64,000 nucleotides of DNA, taken from assembly GCF_900185715.1 (NCBI RefSeq), contig NZ_FYAS01000022.1:1-64000 (forward strand), in the 5' to 3' direction. The translations under genes and the position numbers were made by a program. This document shows positions 44,694-56,335 of the stretch, piece by piece. The first letter of the stretch is position 1; every line of letters starts with the position of its first letter. The DNA is from Allobosea sp. CS1GBMeth4. GTDB taxonomy: Bacteria; Pseudomonadota; Alphaproteobacteria; Rhizobiales; Beijerinckiaceae. The notes under the pieces are model-generated. The model was not told the DNA's origin and made no database searches. It saw only the letters and a program-made list of their open reading frames with translations.

Positions 44694-45686
44694 ATGCACG
44701 TCCTGATCACCGGCGCCGCCGGGATGATCGGCCAGCGGCTCGCCGCGCGCATCGCCCGCGAGGGTGCCTGCGCCGGCAAGCCGCTCACACGGCTGAGCTT
44801 GACCGACGTCGTGGCGCCGCCCCGACCGGCCGGCTTCGACGGGCCGGTCGAGACGCGCACCGAGGATTCGAGCCCGGCGGCGGTCGCGGCCGAACTCGCG
44901 GCCTTGCGGCCCGACATCATCTTCCATCTCGCCGCGATCATCTCCGGCGAGGCCGAGCGCGATCTCGACAAGGGCTATCGCATCAATCTCGATGGCATGC
45001 GCAATCTGCTGGAGGCGATCCGGCAGGAGAGCGCGCGCAAAGGCTCCTATGTCCCGAGGCTCGTCTTCTCCTCCTCGAGCGGCATCTTCGGCGCGCCCTT
45101 CCCGCCTTCGATCTCCGACGAGTTCCATGTCACGCCGCTGACCAGCTACGGCACGCAGAAGGCCATCGGCGAGCTGCTGCTGGCCGACTATTCGCGCCGC
45201 GGCTTCGTCGACGGCGTCGGCGTCCGTTTCCCCTCGATCGTGATCCGGCCGGGCAAGCCGAACGCCTCGGCGGGAGGCTTCTTCTCCGGCATCATCCGCG
45301 AGCCGCTGCAGGGCCGTGAGGCGCTGCTGCCGGTCGAGGACGACGTCGTCTTCACCCATGCCTCGCCGCGCGCGGCCGTCGGCTTCCTGCTGCATGGCGC
45401 CGCGCTGACGCGCGAGCAGCTCGGCCTCCGCATCAACCTGACCATGCCGGGCGTCTGCGTCAGCGTCGGCGAGCAGATCGAGGCACTGCGCCGGATCGCC
45501 GGCGACAGGGCGGTGAAGCTGATCAGGCGCGCGCCCGACAAGGCCGCCTCCGACATCGTCAAGGGCTGGCCGACACGCTTCGACGCCCGCCGCGCGCTCG
45601 CGCTCGGCTTCCAGGCCGAACAGGATTTCGACGAGATCATCCGCATCCATATCGAGGACGATCTCGGCGGCCGCCTTCCCAACTGA
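44694..45686 (+). CDS. DenD-like NAD-dependent epimerase/dehydrogenase, copy 1
   Basis: A 330-residue extended SDR. The Rossmann motif is LITGAAGMIGQRLA, the active-site YxxxK is in TPLTSYGTQKAIGELLLADY, and RFPSIVIRPGKPNASAGGFF follows. The sequence pattern fits the D-erythronate dehydrogenase (DenD) group, which oxidises C2 of four-carbon sugar acids. It is followed 27 bases later by a paralogue with the same motifs in the same order. Confidence 0.9.
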   Translation: MHVLITGAAGMIGQRLAARIAREGACAGKPLTRLSLTDVVAPPRPAGFDGPVETRTEDSSPAAVAAELAALRPDIIFHLAAIISGEAERDLDKGYRINLDGMRNLLEAIRQESARKGSYVPRLVFSSSSGIFGAPFPPSISDEFHVTPLTSYGTQKAIGELLLADYSRRGFVDGVGVRFPSIVIRPGKPNASAGGFFSGIIREPLQGREALLPVEDDVVFTHASPRAAVGFLLHGAALTREQLGLRINLTMPGVCVSVGEQIEALRRIAGDRAVKLIRRAPDKAASDIVKGWPTRFDARRALALGFQAEQDFDEIIRIHIEDDLGGRLPN

Positions 45687-45713
45687 GTTCGACAACCCGA
45701 TCGGAAAGAGACA

Positions 45714-46697
45714 ATGCACATCCTCGTTCTCGGCGGCGCCGGCATGGTCGGCCGCAAGTTCATCGAGCGCCTGGCGCGCGACGGCGGCCTCGGCGGCAAG
45801 GCGATCGCCAAGGTGACGGCGCAGGACGTCTTCCCGGCCTCCGCGCCGGCGAACGCGCCCTTCGCCTTCGAAGCGCTGACCTCGGACCTGTCGCAGCCCG
45901 GCGAGGCCGAGAAGCTGATCGCCGCGCGCCCCGAGCTGATCGTTCACCTCGCCGCCATCGTCTCCGGCGAGGCCGAGGTCGATTTCGACAAGGGCTACCG
46001 CATCAACCTCGACGGCACGCGCTATCTCTTCGACGCGATCCGCCTCGCCGGCGACGGCTACAAGCCGCGCGTGATCTTCACCTCGTCGATCGCTGTCTTC
46101 GGCGCACCCTTCCACGACAAGATCGAGGACGAGTTCTTCACCACGCCGCTGACCAGCTACGGCACGCAGAAGGCGATCGGCGAGCTCCTGCTCTGCGACT
46201 ACAGCCGCCGCGGCTTCTTCGACGGCGTCGGCATCCGCCTGCCGACGATCTGCGTCCGCCCCGGTGCGCCAAACAAGGCCGCCTCCGGCTTCTTCTCCAA
46301 CATCATCCGCGAGCCGCTCAACGGCCAGGAGGCCGTGCTGCCGGTCTCCGAGCAGGTCCGCCACTGGCATGCCTCGCCGCGCTCGGCCGTCGGCTTCCTC
46401 ATCCACGCCGCGACGATGGATACCAGCCTGATCGGCCCGCGCCGGGCCCTGACCATGCCGGGCTATTCCTGCACCGTCGCCGAGCAGATCGAGGCGCTGC
46501 GCAAGGTCGCCGGCGAGAACGTGGTGAAGCGCATCAAGCGCGTGCCCGATCCGGTCATCGACGGGATCGTCGCCGGCTGGCCGCGCAATTTCGACGCCAG
46601 GCGCGCCCCTGCGCTCGGCTTCACGGCGGAATCGAGCTTCGAGGAGATCATCCGCGTCCATATCGACGACGAGCTCGGCGGGAAATTCGTCGCGTGA
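45714..46697 (+). CDS. DenD-like NAD-dependent epimerase/dehydrogenase, copy 2
   Basis: A 327-residue paralogue of the preceding gene: VLGGAGMVGRKFIERLARDG, FDKGYRINLDGTRYLFDAIR, TPLTSYGTQKAIGELLLCDY, GIRLPTICVRPGAPNKAASG. The active-site block TPLTSYGTQKAIGELLL is identical in both copies, while the N-terminal cofactor loop and the middle loop differ, so substrate or cofactor preference may have shifted. It begins 27 bases after copy 1 with GGAAAGAGA upstream. Confidence 0.9.
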   Translation: MHILVLGGAGMVGRKFIERLARDGGLGGKAIAKVTAQDVFPASAPANAPFAFEALTSDLSQPGEAEKLIAARPELIVHLAAIVSGEAEVDFDKGYRINLDGTRYLFDAIRLAGDGYKPRVIFTSSIAVFGAPFHDKIEDEFFTTPLTSYGTQKAIGELLLCDYSRRGFFDGVGIRLPTICVRPGAPNKAASGFFSNIIREPLNGQEAVLPVSEQVRHWHASPRSAVGFLIHAATMDTSLIGPRRALTMPGYSCTVAEQIEALRKVAGENVVKRIKRVPDPVIDGIVAGWPRNFDARRAPALGFTAESSFEEIIRVHIDDELGGKFVA

Positions 46698-47642: not shown

Positions 47643-48617
47643 TCAGGCCTTCCTCCATGGCGTCTCGGCAACGGGCGTCAGCGGGCCCTTGCCATCGAAC
47701 CATGAAACCAGATTGTCGACCAGAAGCTGGCCCATCTGCTCGCGCGTATGCACCGAGGCCGAGCCGACATGCGGCAGAAGCACGACATGGTCCATCGCGA
47801 TCAGCTCGGCCGGCACGCGCGGCTCGTCCTCGAACACGTCGAGGCCGGCCGAGAGGATGGTCTTGCTCTTCAGCGCCTCGATCAGCGCCGCTTCGTCGAT
47901 CACCGTGCCGCGCCCGACATTGACGACGATGCCGTTCGGGCCGAGCGCCTTCAGCACCTCGGCGTTGATGATGTGGTAGGTCGACTTCCCGCCCGGCGCG
48001 ACCGAGACCAGCGTATCGACATCCTGGGCCATCTCGACCAGCGAGGAATAGTAGCGATAGCCGACATCGGCCTGGCGCGAGCGGCCGTGATAGACGATCG
48101 GCACGTCGAAGGCCTCGAGCCGGCGCGCCACCGCCTTGCCGATCCGGCCGAGCCCGACGATGCCGATCTTGCGCTTGCGCAGCGAGGTGGTGAGCGGGTA
48201 GGCGCCCGAGAGCCACTTGCCGGCGCGCAGATAGCGGTCGACCTGCGGCAATTGCCGGACCGTCGCCAGCAGCAGGCCGACGGCGAGGTCGGCGACCTCG
48301 TCGGTCAGCACATCCGGCGTGTTGGTGACGATGATGCCGCGCTTGCCGGCGGCCACGGCGTCGACATTGTCGTAGCCGACGCCGAAATTCGAGACGATCT
48401 CCAGCATGGGCAGCGCGTCGAACAGCGCATCGTCGATGCGCACATGCGCGCCGCCGCCGGCGACGCCGCGCACGCGATCCCTCACCGCGGCCAGCGCCGC
48501 CGGGCGGTCCTGCTCCTTCCAGAGCTCGTGCACGGTGAAGCGCGCCTTCAGCTGGTCGGCGGCATAGGCCATCAGCGGCCCGGTCATGATGATCTCGATC
48601 TTGCTCTGCGCGGTCAT
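47643..48617 (-). CDS. D-2-hydroxyacid dehydrogenase (glyoxylate/hydroxypyruvate reductase type)
   Basis: A 324-residue NAD(P)-dependent enzyme. GIVGLGRIGKAVARRLEAFD is the cofactor motif, and the catalytic Arg–Glu–His triad lies in VSVAPGGKSTYH/NVGRGTVID, EDEP and LLPHVGSASVHTRE. It resembles GhrB-type reductases that turn hydroxypyruvate into D-glycerate, which the glycerate kinase at 27710-29035 could use. The ATG at 48617 follows AGCAGGG. A LacI-type site and a GT-ATG-AC site lie upstream. Confidence 0.92.
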   Translation of the reverse strand: MTAQSKIEIIMTGPLMAYAADQLKARFTVHELWKEQDRPAALAAVRDRVRGVAGGGAHVRIDDALFDALPMLEIVSNFGVGYDNVDAVAAGKRGIIVTNTPDVLTDEVADLAVGLLLATVRQLPQVDRYLRAGKWLSGAYPLTTSLRKRKIGIVGLGRIGKAVARRLEAFDVPIVYHGRSRQADVGYRYYSSLVEMAQDVDTLVSVAPGGKSTYHIINAEVLKALGPNGIVVNVGRGTVIDEAALIEALKSKTILSAGLDVFEDEPRVPAELIAMDHVVLLPHVGSASVHTREQMGQLLVDNLVSWFDGKGPLTPVAETPWRKA

Positions 48618-48661
48618 GGCCCTGCTTTCGTCGAACGAATCTGTGGCTTGATTTCAAATTC

Positions 48662-48675
48662 TTAAAACGATTAGA
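48662..48675. promoter_or_regulatory. LacI-type operator-like site TTAAAAC|GATTAGA
   Basis: A weaker member of the family (right half GATTAGA matches GATTTAA at five of seven positions; CG centre). It lies 45 bases before the D-2-hydroxyacid dehydrogenase start on the minus strand. Confidence 0.35.
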
Positions 48676-48781
48676 TCAACATAGCCGCCGGCTCGCCGCA
48701 GGGGAATTGCCCTGGCGCGCAGACAGGGGCTGCTCGCAGAGCCGGCGACGCGTCCCGGTCCGGCCGTCGATTCACCTCGAT

Positions 48782-48796
48782 ATAGTATGACTTAAT
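48782..48796. promoter_or_regulatory. GntR/FadR-type motif, downstream copy
   Basis: ATAGTATGACTTAAT has the GT-N3-AC core of FadR-branch GntR operators. It touches the first base of the gntR stop codon and lies 165 bases before the D-2-hydroxyacid dehydrogenase. It matches the copy at 49639-49653 at 13 of 15 positions. Confidence 0.5.
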
Positions 48797-49590
48797 CACG
48801 CGCCCTCGGCCGGTTCCAGCTGCGCTCGCCCGGCGAGCAGGCGCAGGGTGCTGTTCAGGCTGTCGATCACCAGGCCGCTCATCCGCGCCGCCGCGAGCTC
48901 GCCGTCGCACTGCACGATCGCGTCGCGCACACGTTCGTGATCGATCAGCGACGCCGTGAAGAAGAAGCGGTCGTCCGGGGCCTTCAGGAACAGCGACCAC
49001 TGGATGGTGGCGCAGACCGCCGGCGCGAGGCATTGCAGCGGCGGGTTGCGGGTGGCGGCGAAGATCGCCTCGTGGAAGGCGAGGTCGGCGCTGACCGTCG
49101 GCTCCGCATAGGGCGGGTTCTCGCACATGCCGCGAAACGCCGTCTCGATCCGCTGGAGATCGGCGGCGCTGCGCCGCTGCGCCGCGAGCCGGGCGGCGCT
49201 CGGCTCGACGAAAAGCCTGAGTTCGAACAGGTCCCGGATGAACTTCTCGTTCGGATCGGCCTCGAAATGCCAGGCCAGCACGTCGGGATCGAGCAGGTTC
49301 CAGGCCTCGCGCGGCGCGACCCGGGTGCCGCTCTTGGGCCGCGCCTCGACCAGCCCCTTACCGCTCAGGAACTTGACGGCCTCGCGATAGGCCGTGCGCG
49401 AGACCGAGATCTCGTCCTTCAGGTCGTCCTCGTTCGGCAGCAGCCCGCCGGCCGGCGCGGCGCCGGTGATGATCGCGACCGCGAGCCGATGCGCGACCTG
49501 GCCGAACAGCCGGTCGGGGTTGAGCCTCGTCGGGCGCGCAGGCACGGGACGCTGCATCGAAGCGGGCTTTTCCTCCGTATCGGGTGGCAT
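48796..49590 (-). CDS. GntR family (FadR/FCD branch) transcriptional regulator
   Basis: A 264-residue regulator: winged helix (residues about 20-85; LLPNEDDLKDEISVSRTAYREAVKFL) and an FCD ligand domain whose metal-ligand residues are in SADLAFHEAIFAATRN and LIDHERVRDAI. FCD regulators usually sense hydroxy- or sugar acids, which fits the cluster. Starts at 49590 and 49557 are both possible; neither has an ideal ribosome site. A longer open frame reaches 49704 without similarity. It is divergent from the ABC transporter operon. Confidence 0.9.
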   Translation of the reverse strand: MPPDTEEKPASMQRPVPARPTRLNPDRLFGQVAHRLAVAIITGAAPAGGLLPNEDDLKDEISVSRTAYREAVKFLSGKGLVEARPKSGTRVAPREAWNLLDPDVLAWHFEADPNEKFIRDLFELRLFVEPSAARLAAQRRSAADLQRIETAFRGMCENPPYAEPTVSADLAFHEAIFAATRNPPLQCLAPAVCATIQWSLFLKAPDDRFFFTASLIDHERVRDAIVQCDGELAAARMSGLVIDSLNSTLRLLAGRAQLEPAEGA

Positions 49591-49621
49591 CGGACATCGC
49601 CCGCTGCCGGCTCCCGGGCGC

Positions 49622-49653
49622 TTGACACGCCTGTTCCTATCGTATGACTTTAT
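49622..49653 (+). promoter_or_regulatory. ABC-operon promoter with GntR-type motif
   Basis: TTGACA at 49622-49627 is a perfect -35; with 17-base spacing the -10 position falls on TGACTT, which is poor and lies inside the 15-base motif ATCGTATGACTTTAT (49639-49653). That motif matches 48782-48796. A regulator bound here would cover the -10 region. It lies about 150 bases before the ABC ATPase start and 50 bases upstream of the gntR start. Confidence 0.5.
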
Positions 49654-49800
49654 CCGCGAACGAGGTCGACGCAACAGGCCCCTCGCCTGAGTGCGCGACC
49701 TCATGTCGATCGGTCGTCTAGAAACCGATGATCTGCAGCGCCGCCGGCGGGGATCGTGTCAGGCACCCCGGGGCCAACGAAGAGCGGGAGAGAAACCGAG

Positions 49801-50865
<1,065 letters not shown>

Positions 50866-50971
50866 GTTCCATCGGCCGCCGCACGGGGAACGCTCCGGCG
50901 GCGGCGACGTCCCAGCAAAACGCGACGAGGCTCCCATGCAGGGCCTCGCGGCAACCCGGAGGAGACAGACG

Positions 50972-52279
50972 ATGACCATTTCCAGACGCGACGTATTGAT
51001 CGGCGGCGCGGGCCTCGCGGCCGGCGCCACCCTGCCCGTGCCGTCGACCGCCCAGACCGCCAACATCGAGAAGGGCGCGACGCTGCGCGTGCTGCGCCCG
51101 ACCAAGTTCGTCGATCCCGACCAGGCGATCTTCGACGAGAACACCGCCGCCTTCACCAAGGCGACCGGCGTCCAGGTCCGTGTCGACTATGCCAGCTGGG
51201 AGGATCTGCGCCCGCAGACCGCCGTCACCGCCAACACCGGCGCCGGCCCCGACGTCGTCGTCGGCTGGGCCGACGACCCGCACATCTTCTCGGACAAGCT
51301 GCTCGACCTGACGCCGATCGCCGAGGACCTCGGCAAGAAATACGGCGGCTGGTACCCCGTCGCCGAGAAATACGGCAAGAAGGACAAGACCAACACCTGG
51401 ATCTCGATCCCCATGGGCGGCTCCGGCGGCCCGGCGGTCTATCGTGAATCCTGGGTCAAGGAAGCTGGCTTCGACAAGTTCCCGAACGACCATGCCGGCT
51501 TCCTCGACCTCTGCCGCAAGCTCAAGGCTAACGGCCATCCGGCCGGCTTCGCCCTCGGCAACGCGGTGGGCGACGGCAACTCGTTCTGCAACTGGCTGGT
51601 CTGGTCGCATGGCGGCTACATGGTCGACGAGAACAACAAGGTCGCGATCAACAGCAAGGAGACGATCGAGGCGCTGAAATACGCCAAGGCGCTCTACGAG
51701 ACCTTCATCCCTGGCACCCTGTCCTGGCTCGACATCGCCAACAACAAGGCGCTGACCGCCGGCGAAATCGGCCTGACCCAGAACGGCGTCTCGCTCTACT
51801 TCTCGATCAAGAACTCGAAGGATGAGAAGATCGCGGCGATCGGCAAGGATCTCAACCATGCCCCGATGCCCATCGGCGCCGGGGTCGGGCGCGCGACGGA
51901 GACGGCGCTGGTGATCAACGCCATGGTGTTCAAGCACACCAAGTTCCCGAACGCGGCCAAGGAATATCTCCGCTTCATGATGGAGAAGGACCAGTACGAC
52001 AAGTGGCTGACCGGCTGCTATGGCTACTGGACGCAGCCGCTCAAGGGCTATGCCTCGAGCAAGGTCTGGGAGAGTGATCCCAAGATCCTGGTCTATCGCG
52101 ACACCTGGGAGCGCGCTCTGTGGAGCGGCTACAAGGGCGCGATCACCGAGGCCGCCGGCACCGTCAACGCCGAATATGTCATGGTGCAGATGGTCGCCTC
52201 CGTCTGCGCCGGCCAGGCGACGCCGGAGCAGGCCGCGGCCGAGGCCGAGCGCCGCGCCAAGCGCTACTACCGCACCTGA
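50972..52279 (+). CDS. sugar ABC transporter substrate-binding protein (Tat-type signal)
   Basis: A 435-residue periplasmic binding protein of the carbohydrate group 1 family. The signal peptide carries a twin-arginine motif (SRRDVLIGGAGLAAGATLPV), so it is probably exported folded. The mature part shows GAGPDVVVGWADDPHIFSDK, SIPMGGSGGPAVYRES and a C-terminal helix-rich end. The ligand is unknown; context suggests a sugar acid or polyol. The ATG at 50972 has GGAGGAGA upstream. It lies 106 bases after the ATPase gene. Confidence 0.93.
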   Translation: MTISRRDVLIGGAGLAAGATLPVPSTAQTANIEKGATLRVLRPTKFVDPDQAIFDENTAAFTKATGVQVRVDYASWEDLRPQTAVTANTGAGPDVVVGWADDPHIFSDKLLDLTPIAEDLGKKYGGWYPVAEKYGKKDKTNTWISIPMGGSGGPAVYRESWVKEAGFDKFPNDHAGFLDLCRKLKANGHPAGFALGNAVGDGNSFCNWLVWSHGGYMVDENNKVAINSKETIEALKYAKALYETFIPGTLSWLDIANNKALTAGEIGLTQNGVSLYFSIKNSKDEKIAAIGKDLNHAPMPIGAGVGRATETALVINAMVFKHTKFPNAAKEYLRFMMEKDQYDKWLTGCYGYWTQPLKGYASSKVWESDPKILVYRDTWERALWSGYKGAITEAAGTVNAEYVMVQMVASVCAGQATPEQAAAEAERRAKRYYRT

Positions 52280-52340
52280 TCCGTCGAGACCGCGCCGTCG
52301 GGACGCCCGGCGGCGCGGCTCCATCACGGGATAACGCGCC

Positions 52341-53294
52341 ATGACAATTGCGGCGGAGGCCCGGCCGGTCCCCCAGCTCTCGCAGAGCTGGCTGGTCAGG
52401 CTGTTCGACTACAAGCCCTTTCTGATCTTCATCTGCCTCCTGCCGGCGATGGGCCTGCTCCTGGTCTTCCTGAGCTATCCGCTCGGCCTCGGGATCTGGC
52501 TCGCCTTCACCGATACGCGCATCGGCCGCGGCGGCTATTTCATCGGCTTCGAGAATTTCGAGTCGCTCTGGCACGATCCGGTCTTCATCACCTCGGTCTG
52601 GAACACGCTGCTCTACACGGGCGTCGCGACCGTCGGGAAATTCGCGCTCGGGCTCTGGCTCGCGCTGCTGCTCAACAACCACTTGCCGTTCAAGTCGCTG
52701 CTGCGGGCCCTGATCCTGGTGCCGTGGATCGTGCCGACAGTGCTCTCCGCGATCGCCTTCTGGTGGATCTACGATCCGCAGTTCTCGATCATCTCCTACA
52801 TCCTCGTCGACGTGCTCGGCTGGCGCGACACCTATATCGACTTCCTCGGCTCGCCCTGGCCGGCGCGCTGGTCGCTGATCGCCGCCAATATCTGGCGCGG
52901 CATTCCCTTCGTCGCGATTTCGCTGCTCGCCGGCCTGCAGACCATCTCGCCTGCGCTCTACGAGGCGGCGATGCTCGACGGCGCCAATGCCTGGCAGCGC
53001 TTCCGCCATGTCACCCTGCCCATGCTGATGCCGATCCTGGCGGTGGTGCTGACCTTCTCGGTGCTGTTCACCTTCACCGATTTCCAGCTCGTCTACGCCA
53101 TCACCCGCGGCGGCCCGATCAACTCGACCCATCTGATGGCGACGCTCGCCTTCCAGCGCGGCATCCCGGGCGGCCAGCTCGGCGAGGGCGCGGCGATCGC
53201 GGTGGCGATGATCCCCTTCCTCGTGCTGGCCACGCTGTTCAGCTACTTCGCGCTCGCCCGCCGCAAATGGCAGCAGGGAGAAGACAATGACTGA
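52341..53294 (+). CDS. sugar ABC transporter permease, MalF/UgpA type
   Basis: A 317-residue inner-membrane protein with six predicted helices. The EAA loop that docks on the ATPase reads YEAAMLDGANAWQRFRHVTL near residue 210. Its N-terminus is cytoplasmic (MTIAAEARPVPQLSQSWLV). The partner permease starts eight bases before its stop, so the two are translationally coupled. Confidence 0.94.
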   Translation: MTIAAEARPVPQLSQSWLVRLFDYKPFLIFICLLPAMGLLLVFLSYPLGLGIWLAFTDTRIGRGGYFIGFENFESLWHDPVFITSVWNTLLYTGVATVGKFALGLWLALLLNNHLPFKSLLRALILVPWIVPTVLSAIAFWWIYDPQFSIISYILVDVLGWRDTYIDFLGSPWPARWSLIAANIWRGIPFVAISLLAGLQTISPALYEAAMLDGANAWQRFRHVTLPMLMPILAVVLTFSVLFTFTDFQLVYAITRGGPINSTHLMATLAFQRGIPGGQLGEGAAIAVAMIPFLVLATLFSYFALARRKWQQGEDND

Positions 53295-54195
53295 TCAGGC
53301 TCCCGCCGCGGCCGCGCGCCCGCATCTCGTCGACAAGGAGCGGACCGGCGTCATCGACTGGTCCTCCGGACCGCGCCGCTTCATCACGCTCTATCTGCCG
53401 CTCGCGATCTTCGTGATCGTGCTGCTGTTCCCGTTCTACTGGATGGCGATCACGGCGATCAAACCGAACGCCGAGCTCTACGACTACAAGACCTACAACC
53501 CGTTCTGGGTGAAGTCGCCGACGCTGGAGAACATCAACCGGCTGCTGTTCCAGACCGATTACCCGCAATGGCTCTGGACGACGATGATGGTGGCGACGGT
53601 CGCGACCGCGCTCTCGCTCTTCTCCAGCGTGCTCGCCGCCTATGCGATCCAGCGCCTGAAGTTCAAGGGTTCGAGCTATGTCGGCCTGGCGATCTACCTC
53701 GCCTATCTCGTCCCGCCCTCGATCCTGTTCATTCCCCTGGCGACGCTGATCTTCCAGTTCGGCCTGTTCGACTCGCCGATGGCGCTGATCCTGACTTATC
53801 CGACCTTCCTGATCCCGTTCTGCACCTGGCTGCTGATCGGCTACTTCAAGTCGATCCCCTACGAGCTCGAGGAATGCGCCATGATCGACGGCGCGACCCG
53901 CTTGCAGACGCTCTGGCAGATCACCTTGCCGCTGGCCCTGCCCGGGCTGATCTCGGCCGGCATCTTCGCCTTCACCCTGTCCTGGAACGAGTTCATCTAT
54001 GCGCTCGCCTTCATCCAGTCGGCCGAGAAGAAGACGGTGCCGGTCGCGGTGCTGACCCAGCTCGTCGAGGGCGACGTCTACCATTGGGGCTCTCTGATGG
54101 CCGGCGCGCTGCTCGGCTCGATCCCCGTCGCCCTGCTCTATTCCTTCTTCGTCGACTACTACGTCGCCTCGCTGACCGGCGCGGTGAAGGAGTGA
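53287..54195 (+). CDS. sugar ABC transporter permease, MalG/UgpE type
   Basis: A 302-residue inner-membrane protein, six predicted helices; the EAA loop is in YELEECAMIDGATRLQTLWQ near residue 195. It completes the importer with the ATPase, binding protein and first permease. The next gene, an LtnD-like dehydrogenase, starts 52 bases later on the same strand, which ties the transporter to catabolism of its substrate. Confidence 0.94.
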   Translation: MTDQAPAAAARPHLVDKERTGVIDWSSGPRRFITLYLPLAIFVIVLLFPFYWMAITAIKPNAELYDYKTYNPFWVKSPTLENINRLLFQTDYPQWLWTTMMVATVATALSLFSSVLAAYAIQRLKFKGSSYVGLAIYLAYLVPPSILFIPLATLIFQFGLFDSPMALILTYPTFLIPFCTWLLIGYFKSIPYELEECAMIDGATRLQTLWQITLPLALPGLISAGIFAFTLSWNEFIYALAFIQSAEKKTVPVAVLTQLVEGDVYHWGSLMAGALLGSIPVALLYSFFVDYYVASLTGAVKE

Positions 54196-54247: not shown

Positions 54248-55138
54248 GTGACTTCCATCGCCTTCGTCGGGCTCGGCGCCATGGGTGCGCCGATGGCCGA
54301 AAACCTCGTCAAGCGACAGTTCCGCGTCACCGGCTTCGACATGCGCGAGAGCGCCCGGGCCGCGCTCGCCGCCGCCGGCGGGATCGCCGCCGACAGCGCG
54401 GCCGCGGCGGCCCGGGGCGCCGATGCGCTCGTTCTGATGGTGGTCAACGCCGCCCAGGCCCGGTCCGTGCTGTTCGACGCCGGCGCGCTGGCGGCGCTGG
54501 CGCCCGGCGCCACGGTCATCCTGATGGCGACCTGCCCGCCGGGCGAGGTCGAGGCCATGGCCGATGCGGTGACGCAGACCGGCCGGCATTTCGTCGACGC
54601 GCCGGTTTCGGGCGGCGTGAAGGGCGCCGAAGGCGGCACGCTCACCATCATGGTGGGCGCTCCGGCGGAGAGCTTCGCCAGGGCGAGGCCGGTGCTCGAC
54701 GCCATGGGCGACAAGGTCTTCCATGTCGGCGAGAAACCCGGCCAGGGCGCGACGGTGAAGACCGTCAACCAGCTGCTCTGCGGCGTCCACATCGCGGTGG
54801 CGGCGGAGGCGCTCTCGCTGGCGCAGAAGGCGGGCATCGACGGCGCGCTGCTCTTCGAGATCCTCGGGGGCTCGGCCGCCTCGTCCTGGATGCTGAAGGA
54901 CCGCGGCCCGCGCATGCTCGAGGACGAGCCGCCCGTCGCCAGCGCCGTCGACATCTTCGTCAAGGATCTCGGCATCGTCCTCGATGCCGGCCGGGCGGCC
55001 AAGGCGGCGCTGCCGCTCGCCGCGGCCGCGCACCAGATGTTCCTCGCCGCCTCGGGCCTCGGCCATGGCGGGCGCGACGACTCGCATGTCGTGCGCGCCT
55101 ACCGGGCGCTGAACCGCAAGCCCGACGGTGATGCCTGA
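54248..55138 (+). CDS. 3-hydroxyisobutyrate-dehydrogenase-family oxidoreductase, LtnD-like
   Basis: A 296-residue beta-hydroxyacid dehydrogenase: cofactor motif FVGLGAMGAPMAENLVK, substrate motif DAPVSGGVKGAEGGTLTIM, and the catalytic lysine in GQGATVKTVNQLL. The pattern resembles L-threonate dehydrogenase (LtnD), which oxidises C2 or C3 of four-carbon acids. Together with the DenD-like genes this points to C4 sugar acids, but the kinase (OtnK), isomerase (OtnI) and aldolase (OtnC) of the known pathways are not in the window. It begins at a GTG and converges with the lacI-type gene seven bases later. Confidence 0.88.
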   Translation: MTSIAFVGLGAMGAPMAENLVKRQFRVTGFDMRESARAALAAAGGIAADSAAAAARGADALVLMVVNAAQARSVLFDAGALAALAPGATVILMATCPPGEVEAMADAVTQTGRHFVDAPVSGGVKGAEGGTLTIMVGAPAESFARARPVLDAMGDKVFHVGEKPGQGATVKTVNQLLCGVHIAVAAEALSLAQKAGIDGALLFEILGGSAASSWMLKDRGPRMLEDEPPVASAVDIFVKDLGIVLDAGRAAKAALPLAAAAHQMFLAASGLGHGGRDDSHVVRAYRALNRKPDGDA

Positions 55139-55145
55139 GCCTGCC

Positions 55146-56231
55146 TCAGCGCCGCGTCTTCGGCGCTGCCGTGGTCTGGCGCACGACGAGCTCGGGCGTC
55201 AGGACGACGCGCTGCGGCGGCGCCGACGGGTCGGCGATCCGGCGGATCAGCATCTCCGCGGTCTTGCGTCCCATCTCGTCCTGGAAGTTCTTGACCGTGG
55301 TCAGCGCCGGATACCATTGCGAGGCTTCCTGAACATCGTCGCAGCCGATGATCGAGAAGTCCGCGCCGGCCTCCAATCCGCGATGACGCAGGCCGAGCAT
55401 CGCGCCGAAGGCGGTGAGGTCGTTGAAGCAGACGGCGGCGCTCGGCGGATTCTCCGCGTCGAGCACCTTCTGGACACCCTTGAGGCCATTCTCGCGCGTG
55501 CCATAGGCCGAGTAGACGATGGTGGGGTCGAGCGGCAGGCCGTGTTTCGCCAGCGTCTCGCAATAGCCGCTATAGCGGTTGCGGCCGGTCGAGATCAGCG
55601 GGCTCTCGCCGAGGAAGGCGATGCGGCGATGGCCGAGGCCGATCAGGTGCTCGACGGCGAGCACGGTGCCGTGCCGGTCGTCGGAGCCGACGAAATCGAG
55701 CCCGATGCCGGGGATCTCGCGCGAGAGCTGCACCAGCGGCACATGCGCCGCCATCAGGTGTTGCAGGGTCTCGGCCGTGCTGCCGCCGGCCGGGCAGATG
55801 ATCATCCCGTCGGGACGGTATTCCTTCAGCGTGTTGAGGACCCGGTCCTGCCGCTCGAGATTCTCGGCATAGGTCCCGAGCAGGATCGAGCGGCCATGCG
55901 CCGCCGCCGTTTCCTCGATCGCCGCGAGCAGCTCGGCGAAATAGGGATTGGTGATGTCGTGGAAGCCGACGCCGAGGATATTCGTGCGGTCGGTCCGGAG
56001 CGAGGCGGCGCTGCGATTGTAGCTGTAGCCCATCTCGCGCGCGATCTGCTGGACGCGCAGGCGCGTGCCGTCGGCGACGAGCGGACTCTCGCGCAAGGCG
56101 AGCGACACGGTCGCCGTCGAGACCTCGAGCCGGTCAGCGATGATCTGCAAGGTAACGCGCCCGCGCCCACCCGGTTTCACACCCGCCCTGCCCGGCCCCG
56201 AGGGGTCGCGCGGGTGTCCGTCATTCGCCAT
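55146..56231 (-). CDS. LacI family transcriptional regulator
   Basis: A 361-residue regulator. The helix-turn-helix is VTLQIIADRLEVSTATVSLA (residues about 27-47) with the hinge helix near YNRSAASLRTDRTN; the periplasmic-binding-like ligand domain follows (ILGVGFHDITNPYFAELLAA). A longer basic N-terminal tail precedes the HTH. The ATG at 56231 has AGGAG at nine bases. It is divergent from an oxidoreductase gene. Five LacI-type operator-like sites spread over 39.5-58.5 kb are the natural targets. Confidence 0.93.
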   Translation of the reverse strand: MANDGHPRDPSGPGRAGVKPGGRGRVTLQIIADRLEVSTATVSLALRESPLVADGTRLRVQQIAREMGYSYNRSAASLRTDRTNILGVGFHDITNPYFAELLAAIEETAAAHGRSILLGTYAENLERQDRVLNTLKEYRPDGMIICPAGGSTAETLQHLMAAHVPLVQLSREIPGIGLDFVGSDDRHGTVLAVEHLIGLGHRRIAFLGESPLISTGRNRYSGYCETLAKHGLPLDPTIVYSAYGTRENGLKGVQKVLDAENPPSAAVCFNDLTAFGAMLGLRHRGLEAGADFSIIGCDDVQEASQWYPALTTVKNFQDEMGRKTAEMLIRRIADPSAPPQRVVLTPELVVRQTTAAPKTRR

Positions 56232-56269
56232 CAATCGCTTCTCCTGAAGCCTCGAAGCCGCAGCACTCA

Positions 56270-56295
56270 ACCAATTCTTGGTCAAATCGTTCCGC
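56270..56295. promoter_or_regulatory. divergent lacI/oxidoreductase operator region
   Basis: Holds a perfect ACCAA-TTC-TTGGT palindrome (56270-56282) directly followed by TCAAATC|GTTCCGC (56282-56295), whose left half TCAAATCG equals that of 39534-39547. It lies in the 104-base gap between the divergent starts, a natural autoregulation site. Confidence 0.45.
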
Positions 56296-56335
56296 ATTTC
56301 CTTGTTCCATCTCATAGAATTCGGAGAAACTGAAG

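Follow-up and report, generated by a model that had tools for sequence, protein, structure and literature searches.

The window, meaning the whole stretch of 64,000 nucleotides analysed here, contains a gene for a GntR/FCD regulator with a short operator-like sequence at either end, a dehydrogenase gene on its left and a divergent transporter operon on its right. The features of the locus are the following:

47643-48617, minus strand: D-2-hydroxyacid dehydrogenase, found to the left of gntR in Bosea; 166 bases separate its ATG from site 1 in the window
48782-48797, plus strand: site 1, operator-like ATAGTATGACTTAATC, at the gntR 3' end, with the dyad centre at T 48788
48796-49557, minus strand: gntR, a DgoR-like GntR/FCD regulator of 253 aa (PF00392 and PF07729 above cutoff, relative 7c7e, structure model)
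49622-49627, plus strand: TTGACA, the probable -35 element of the ABC operon, 14 bases before the GTATGAC of site 2
49639-49654, plus strand: site 2, operator-like ATCGTATGACTTTATC, before the ABC operon and upstream of gntR, with the dyad centre at T 49645
49801-54195, plus strand: transporter genes of the ABC sugar-type operon, divergent from gntR
49801-50865, plus strand: ATPase of the ABC operon
50936-52279, plus strand: binding protein of the ABC operon
52341-53294 and 53287-54195, plus strand: permeases of the ABC operon
54248-55138, plus strand: 3-hydroxyisobutyrate/L-threonate-dehydrogenase-like enzyme, last operon gene (NCBIfam ThreonDh 317 bits, below the cutoff of 350)
55146-56315: LacI gene, at the end of the ABC operon

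To the left of the hydroxyacid dehydrogenase, at 44694-46697, are two adjacent D-erythronate dehydrogenase genes, tandem paralogues that both score above the NCBIfam cutoff. Because of this pair, the gene content points to sugar-acid use as the likely theme of the locus, and our guess from the neighbouring enzymes is that the ligand of GntR is a sugar acid.

The GntR protein comprises an N-terminal winged helix-turn-helix (PF00392, 46.7 bits against a cutoff of 27) and a C-terminal FCD domain (PF07729, 69.1 bits against 24.3). None of the NCBIfam regulator models reached its cutoff. The structure model has a mean pLDDT of 81.6, with a weaker linker region, and its FCD domain is all-helical, with helices at 91-100, 104-128, 131-146, 152-168, 178-192, 197-215 and 219-247 plus a short one at 172-176. 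In the model the domain is of the seven-helix FadR type, following the definition of the seven-helix FadR group and the six-helix VanR group given in PMC7797058. FCD structures are its top Foldseek matches, with modest TM scores, and the closest solved relative by sequence is Escherichia coli DgoR (7c7e, E 1.4e-31).

Site 1 reads ATAGTATGACTTAAT at 48782-48796 and site 2 reads ATCGTATGACTTTAT at 49639-49653, both on the plus strand and differing in 2 of 15 bases. The original prediction had placed two sites here, identical at 13 of 15 bases, with one abutting the gntR stop, and this is what the window holds, the gntR stop codon (48796-48798) even sharing one base with site 1. The joint pattern with up to three mismatches has two matches in the window, where 0.16 were expected and two were reached in 1 of 100 shuffles. 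However, the best 15-mer common to both intergenic regions, at 13/15, is equalled or exceeded in 7 of 60 dinucleotide-shuffled pairs, so the likeness taken from the window alone is unconvincing and within reach of chance. The reality of the pair is settled by the conservation of both sites, far above their flanks, in the Bosea loci.

For this comparison 68 Bosea rows were measured, from which 19 duplicate sequences were dropped to leave 49 distinct loci; the counts of identity and base composition also exclude locus L108, whose gntR is split over two frames, and cover 48. Pairwise comparison of these 48 gave a mean identity of 0.88 for site 1, where the 15-base blocks on either side are at 0.30-0.60, and of 0.98 for site 2, where those blocks are at 0.32-0.69. 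Both sites are in place in 30 genus loci and in a second set of 36, many genomes being common to the two sets. Loss of the motif was looked for in relatives keeping the gene order and was not found. In the genome with the split gene (G016, L108:7854-8548) site 2 is intact and site 1 is one base off the degenerate pattern; this gntR could be a pseudogene or a sequencing error.

The distribution of the motif follows that of the gene. The 13-mer GTATGACTTWATC has 40 matches in 61 relatives, none of them more than about 125 bases from an end of gntR. It is present in all 34 genus genomes with a gntR orthologue (at least 71% identity) and absent from the 3 genus genomes without one and from the 24 genomes of other genera. 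The order-wide background is 14 of 397 genomes, two of them from Bosea, hence 12 of 395 others, and no GntR homologue was found near the background matches in the 8 inspected. The degenerate site-1 pattern gave 3 stray matches in 23 genus genomes. A wider regulon was sought in the genome of the window: when two mismatches were allowed, the pattern had one further match (with two mismatches) against four for the reversed control.

The core of both window sites is GT-ATG-AC, with GT and AC three bases apart as is usual in operators of the FadR subfamily, where the spacing is 2-3 bases, and with the dyad centre at its T. The original prediction invoked a GT-N(0-3)-AC core for FadR-branch operators, and the GT-N3-AC core seen here fits the published description of the subfamily (PMC4494728). 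At site 2 the G of this core is kept in 47 and the AC in all 48 Bosea loci, whereas at site 1 the C is changed to T in 31 and the A to C in 15 of the 48. The symmetry of the sites is partial in these loci. The base just before GT can be A, C, G or T, with no fixed G, and HTH position 28 of GntR, as placed by our own judgement, appears to be Asp; these two observations agree with the link drawn in the survey between Arg at that position and a G immediately before GT (PMC4494728).

Orthologues of GntR, 48-56% identical, were identified in two other genera of the family, and ten outgroup loci were examined (L099-L104 and L120-L123). In all ten the ABC operon is divergent from gntR with site 2 behind TTGACA, and a site-1-like sequence is found at the gntR 3' end. 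A weight matrix built from Bosea sites only ranked site 2 first in 10/10 loci and site 1 among the top three in 9/10, the exception being L100, where site 1 is degenerate (2/14 mismatches). A later consensus with up to two mismatches found both sites in all ten and no other match in 162,510 bases; this consensus was written after the sites of the same loci had been viewed and its fit there is partly circular, a reservation that does not apply to the lack of other matches in those genomes or of any match in genomes lacking gntR. Searched exactly, the consensus TARTATKAYTWWTT has 17 matches in genus g27, all at gntR ends, against 4 for the reversed control, and is present in 9/9 genomes with gntR and 0/8 without. 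Outgroup site 1 has near or full symmetry about the same centre as in Bosea, near-symmetric as in AATTAGTATTATTAATT and a full palindrome, TAGTATTACTA, in L120. The motif is absent at more distant GntR homologues (44-48% identical; L105-L107), and in the tree the motif-bearing proteins stand apart from the 13 non-motif homologues included, with local support of 0.952-0.994.

On this comparative evidence the two sites are almost certainly the operator pair of the GntR protein encoded between them. The adjacent GntR/FCD protein is the likely binder since the motif is co-inherited with gntR, persists beside the outgroup orthologues and has the GT-N3-AC core that fits the FadR subfamily. Binding of both sites by another regulator, for instance the LacI encoded at 55146-56315 or a protein encoded elsewhere, is improbable. 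The LacI gene does end the operon in the window and in 6 of 7 further Bosea loci (it was not seen in L108), but no LacI match was found in the ten outgroup loci, where the sites are retained, which led us to reject it as the binder; moreover, genomes lacking gntR do not carry the motif, and its core is that of the FadR subfamily. GntR is the only regulator gene seen in common across the motif-bearing loci.

Site 2 lies behind the perfect TTGACA noted in the original prediction, which had it cover the -10 region of the ABC promoter. The arrangement is nearly fixed, TTGACA-N14-[GA]TATGA being present in 55 of 59 loci (49 Bosea and ten outgroup), with N13 or N15 in the other 4. Of that earlier claim the perfect TTGACA is confirmed and is a probable -35 element; the -10 box is a provisional assignment because TTGACA-N15-TATGAC is off-consensus; the sigma-70 scan of 48560-49830 with spacers of 16-18 bases gave no promoter. 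The near-fixed distance to TTGACA would also be expected if site 2 were a mere conserved -10 region and site 1 a chance lookalike, as the window-only similarity would allow. This is very improbable: site 1 has no TTGACA at a matching distance and is nevertheless conserved (0.88, compared with 0.30-0.60 for the flanking blocks), and it recurs in other genera. As an operator of GntR, site 2 likely acts on the ABC operon by repression, judging from its position. Further downstream, in the leader of the operon, there is an inverted repeat ATCGGT-N9-ACCGAT (49709-49729) identified in 27 of 30 genus loci, with arms that change in pairs; it might be an RNA hairpin or a second operator.

In Bosea the hydroxyacid dehydrogenase follows gntR in all 68 rows measured (49 distinct), and the distance between its ATG and site 1 is 124-211 bases in the distinct loci. 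A single base is shared by site 1 and the gntR stop in 30 of these 49, and in 16 the site lies inside the gntR coding sequence; its DNA is kept regardless of the gntR reading frame. The outgroup loci differ in the gene on the left, four having an SDR enzyme (L099, L101, L120 and L121), one having pyruvate carboxylase (L100) and five having a convergent lysR (L102, L103, L104, L122 and L123), and the site-1-like sequence is there whatever the left gene. In the five lysR loci, which are one clade and hence one event, site 1 encodes the C-terminus of LysR with the same codons throughout, including three ATT for Ile; these codons are locally rare (ATT:ATC usage 7:58 over four coding stretches of L103). 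With a convergent lysR on the left, a promoter of the left gene cannot explain site 1 there. An antisense or leftward promoter at site 1 in the window was considered and rejected, there being no TTGACA at the site-2 spacing and no sigma-70-like site in 48560-49830.

These data bear on the claim of the original prediction that GntR controls the genes on both sides of it. In one form of this claim GntR binds both sites, site 2 controlling the ABC operon and site 1 independently controlling the hydroxyacid dehydrogenase. This form is possible but rather doubtful. The same motif is found at both places, the constancy of the dehydrogenase in Bosea is what would be expected of a gene served by site 1 and counts against a purely auxiliary operator, and FadR-subfamily divergons in which each of two sites serves its own operon are described in PMC4494728. 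However, site 1 keeps its place at the gntR 3' end although the interval to the dehydrogenase ATG is variable, in other genera it is retained even where the left gene is unrelated or convergent, and the dehydrogenase has a conserved inverted repeat of its own closer to the ATG. Control of the ABC side is the likely part of the claim, and control of the left side the weaker one as site 1 tracks the gntR 3' end; in Bosea site 1 may have a role at the dehydrogenase in addition. The inverted repeat just mentioned is TTGATTY-N9-RAAWCGATT, at 48648-48672 upstream of the dehydrogenase. In 18 of 23 genus genomes it matches at this locus and nowhere else, its arms change together between clades, and it is possibly the operator of another regulator.

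The joint reading that we slightly favour is that both sites are GntR operators, that GntR is a local, DgoR-like repressor of a locus for transport and catabolism of the sugar-acid type, and that site 1 is an auxiliary operator. The strongly supported step of the corresponding mechanism is that GntR would bind as a dimer to the pseudo-palindrome that has the T of GT-ATG-AC as its centre. Bound at site 2, the dimer would cover the DNA just downstream of the fixed TTGACA and block the ABC promoter and, as this site is upstream of gntR, autoregulation could follow. Less certainly, site 1 would be a further operator, tied to the gntR 3' end, that assists site 2 in cis over a distance of about 860 bases, either through higher local occupancy of the repressor or by looping around gntR; in Bosea it may additionally affect the dehydrogenase. 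The more specific proposal, that a FadR-group repressor keeps a 3'-end operator whatever lies beyond and that gntR is bracketed and probably enclosed in a repression loop, is put forward tentatively, as something a little short of probable. The spacing between the sites is 846-868 in Bosea and 852-914 in the outgroups and is not locked to the DNA helix; no helical phasing was found (resultant 0.15-0.21), which gives no support for a tight loop, and phasing was discarded as evidence of looping. Looping is plausible and no more since the spacing is unphased and the FCD domain, in the model, places GntR in the seven-helix FadR group, whose proteins are described as dimers with sites near promoters, the looping precedent being a VanR-group tetramer (PMC7797058).

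The sugar-acid setting is alike in the closest solved relative, DgoR, a GntR/FadR-group repressor of the D-galactonate genes of E. coli. Its operator IR1 is reported to contain TTGTAGTACAA, a GT-N3-AC palindrome overlapping the dgo promoter (PMC12288454); its two repeats lie near each other at a single promoter, whereas sites 1 and 2 are separated by about 860 bases and stand at opposite ends of gntR. The FadR-subfamily operators described by Suvorova et al. 2015 are similar A/T-rich palindromes, with GT and AC three bases apart and paired sites around regulator genes, but those described are in divergent intergenic regions, while here one site is at the 3' end of the regulator gene (PMC4494728). 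Atu1419 of Agrobacterium fabrum is, as here, an FCD regulator with two separate operators, one of them on the -10 box; the weaker operator is inside a reading frame and looping was proposed by the authors (PMC7797058). Unlike the GntR modelled here with seven helices, Atu1419 is a tetramer of the VanR group with a six-helix domain, and its sites are 109-190 bases apart. In the open-licence literature Atu1419 and NanR were the nearest cases of looping or second operators in the family (see also PMC8012715), and no paper was found for the motif or for any GntR operator in Bosea.

The operator pair is new as a case and ordinary as a kind, and the persistent 3'-end operator is the interesting part. 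A previously unlinked group of regulators gains a concrete predicted operator, limited to one locus in the genomes searched. The 3'-end site, kept through changes of neighbour, is a natural test between a distal operator acting on the main promoter and an operator of the adjacent gene. If true, the proposal implies a long-range arrangement in which the regulator brackets its own gene, in a group whose members are described as dimers that bind close to promoters.

Two further observations concern variation around these loci. The binding protein and both permeases (50936-54195) are at least 82% identical in L031, L050, L053 and L108 and only 44-46% and 61-68% identical in L042, L056 and L060, while the ATPase, GntR and the operators stay; this may be read as replacement of a cassette within a conserved operon. 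In G026, the start of the 44% identical GntR homologue at L107:1087-1713 is closely preceded by a palindrome of its own, TTATCATATGATAA, which is a candidate operator for another group.
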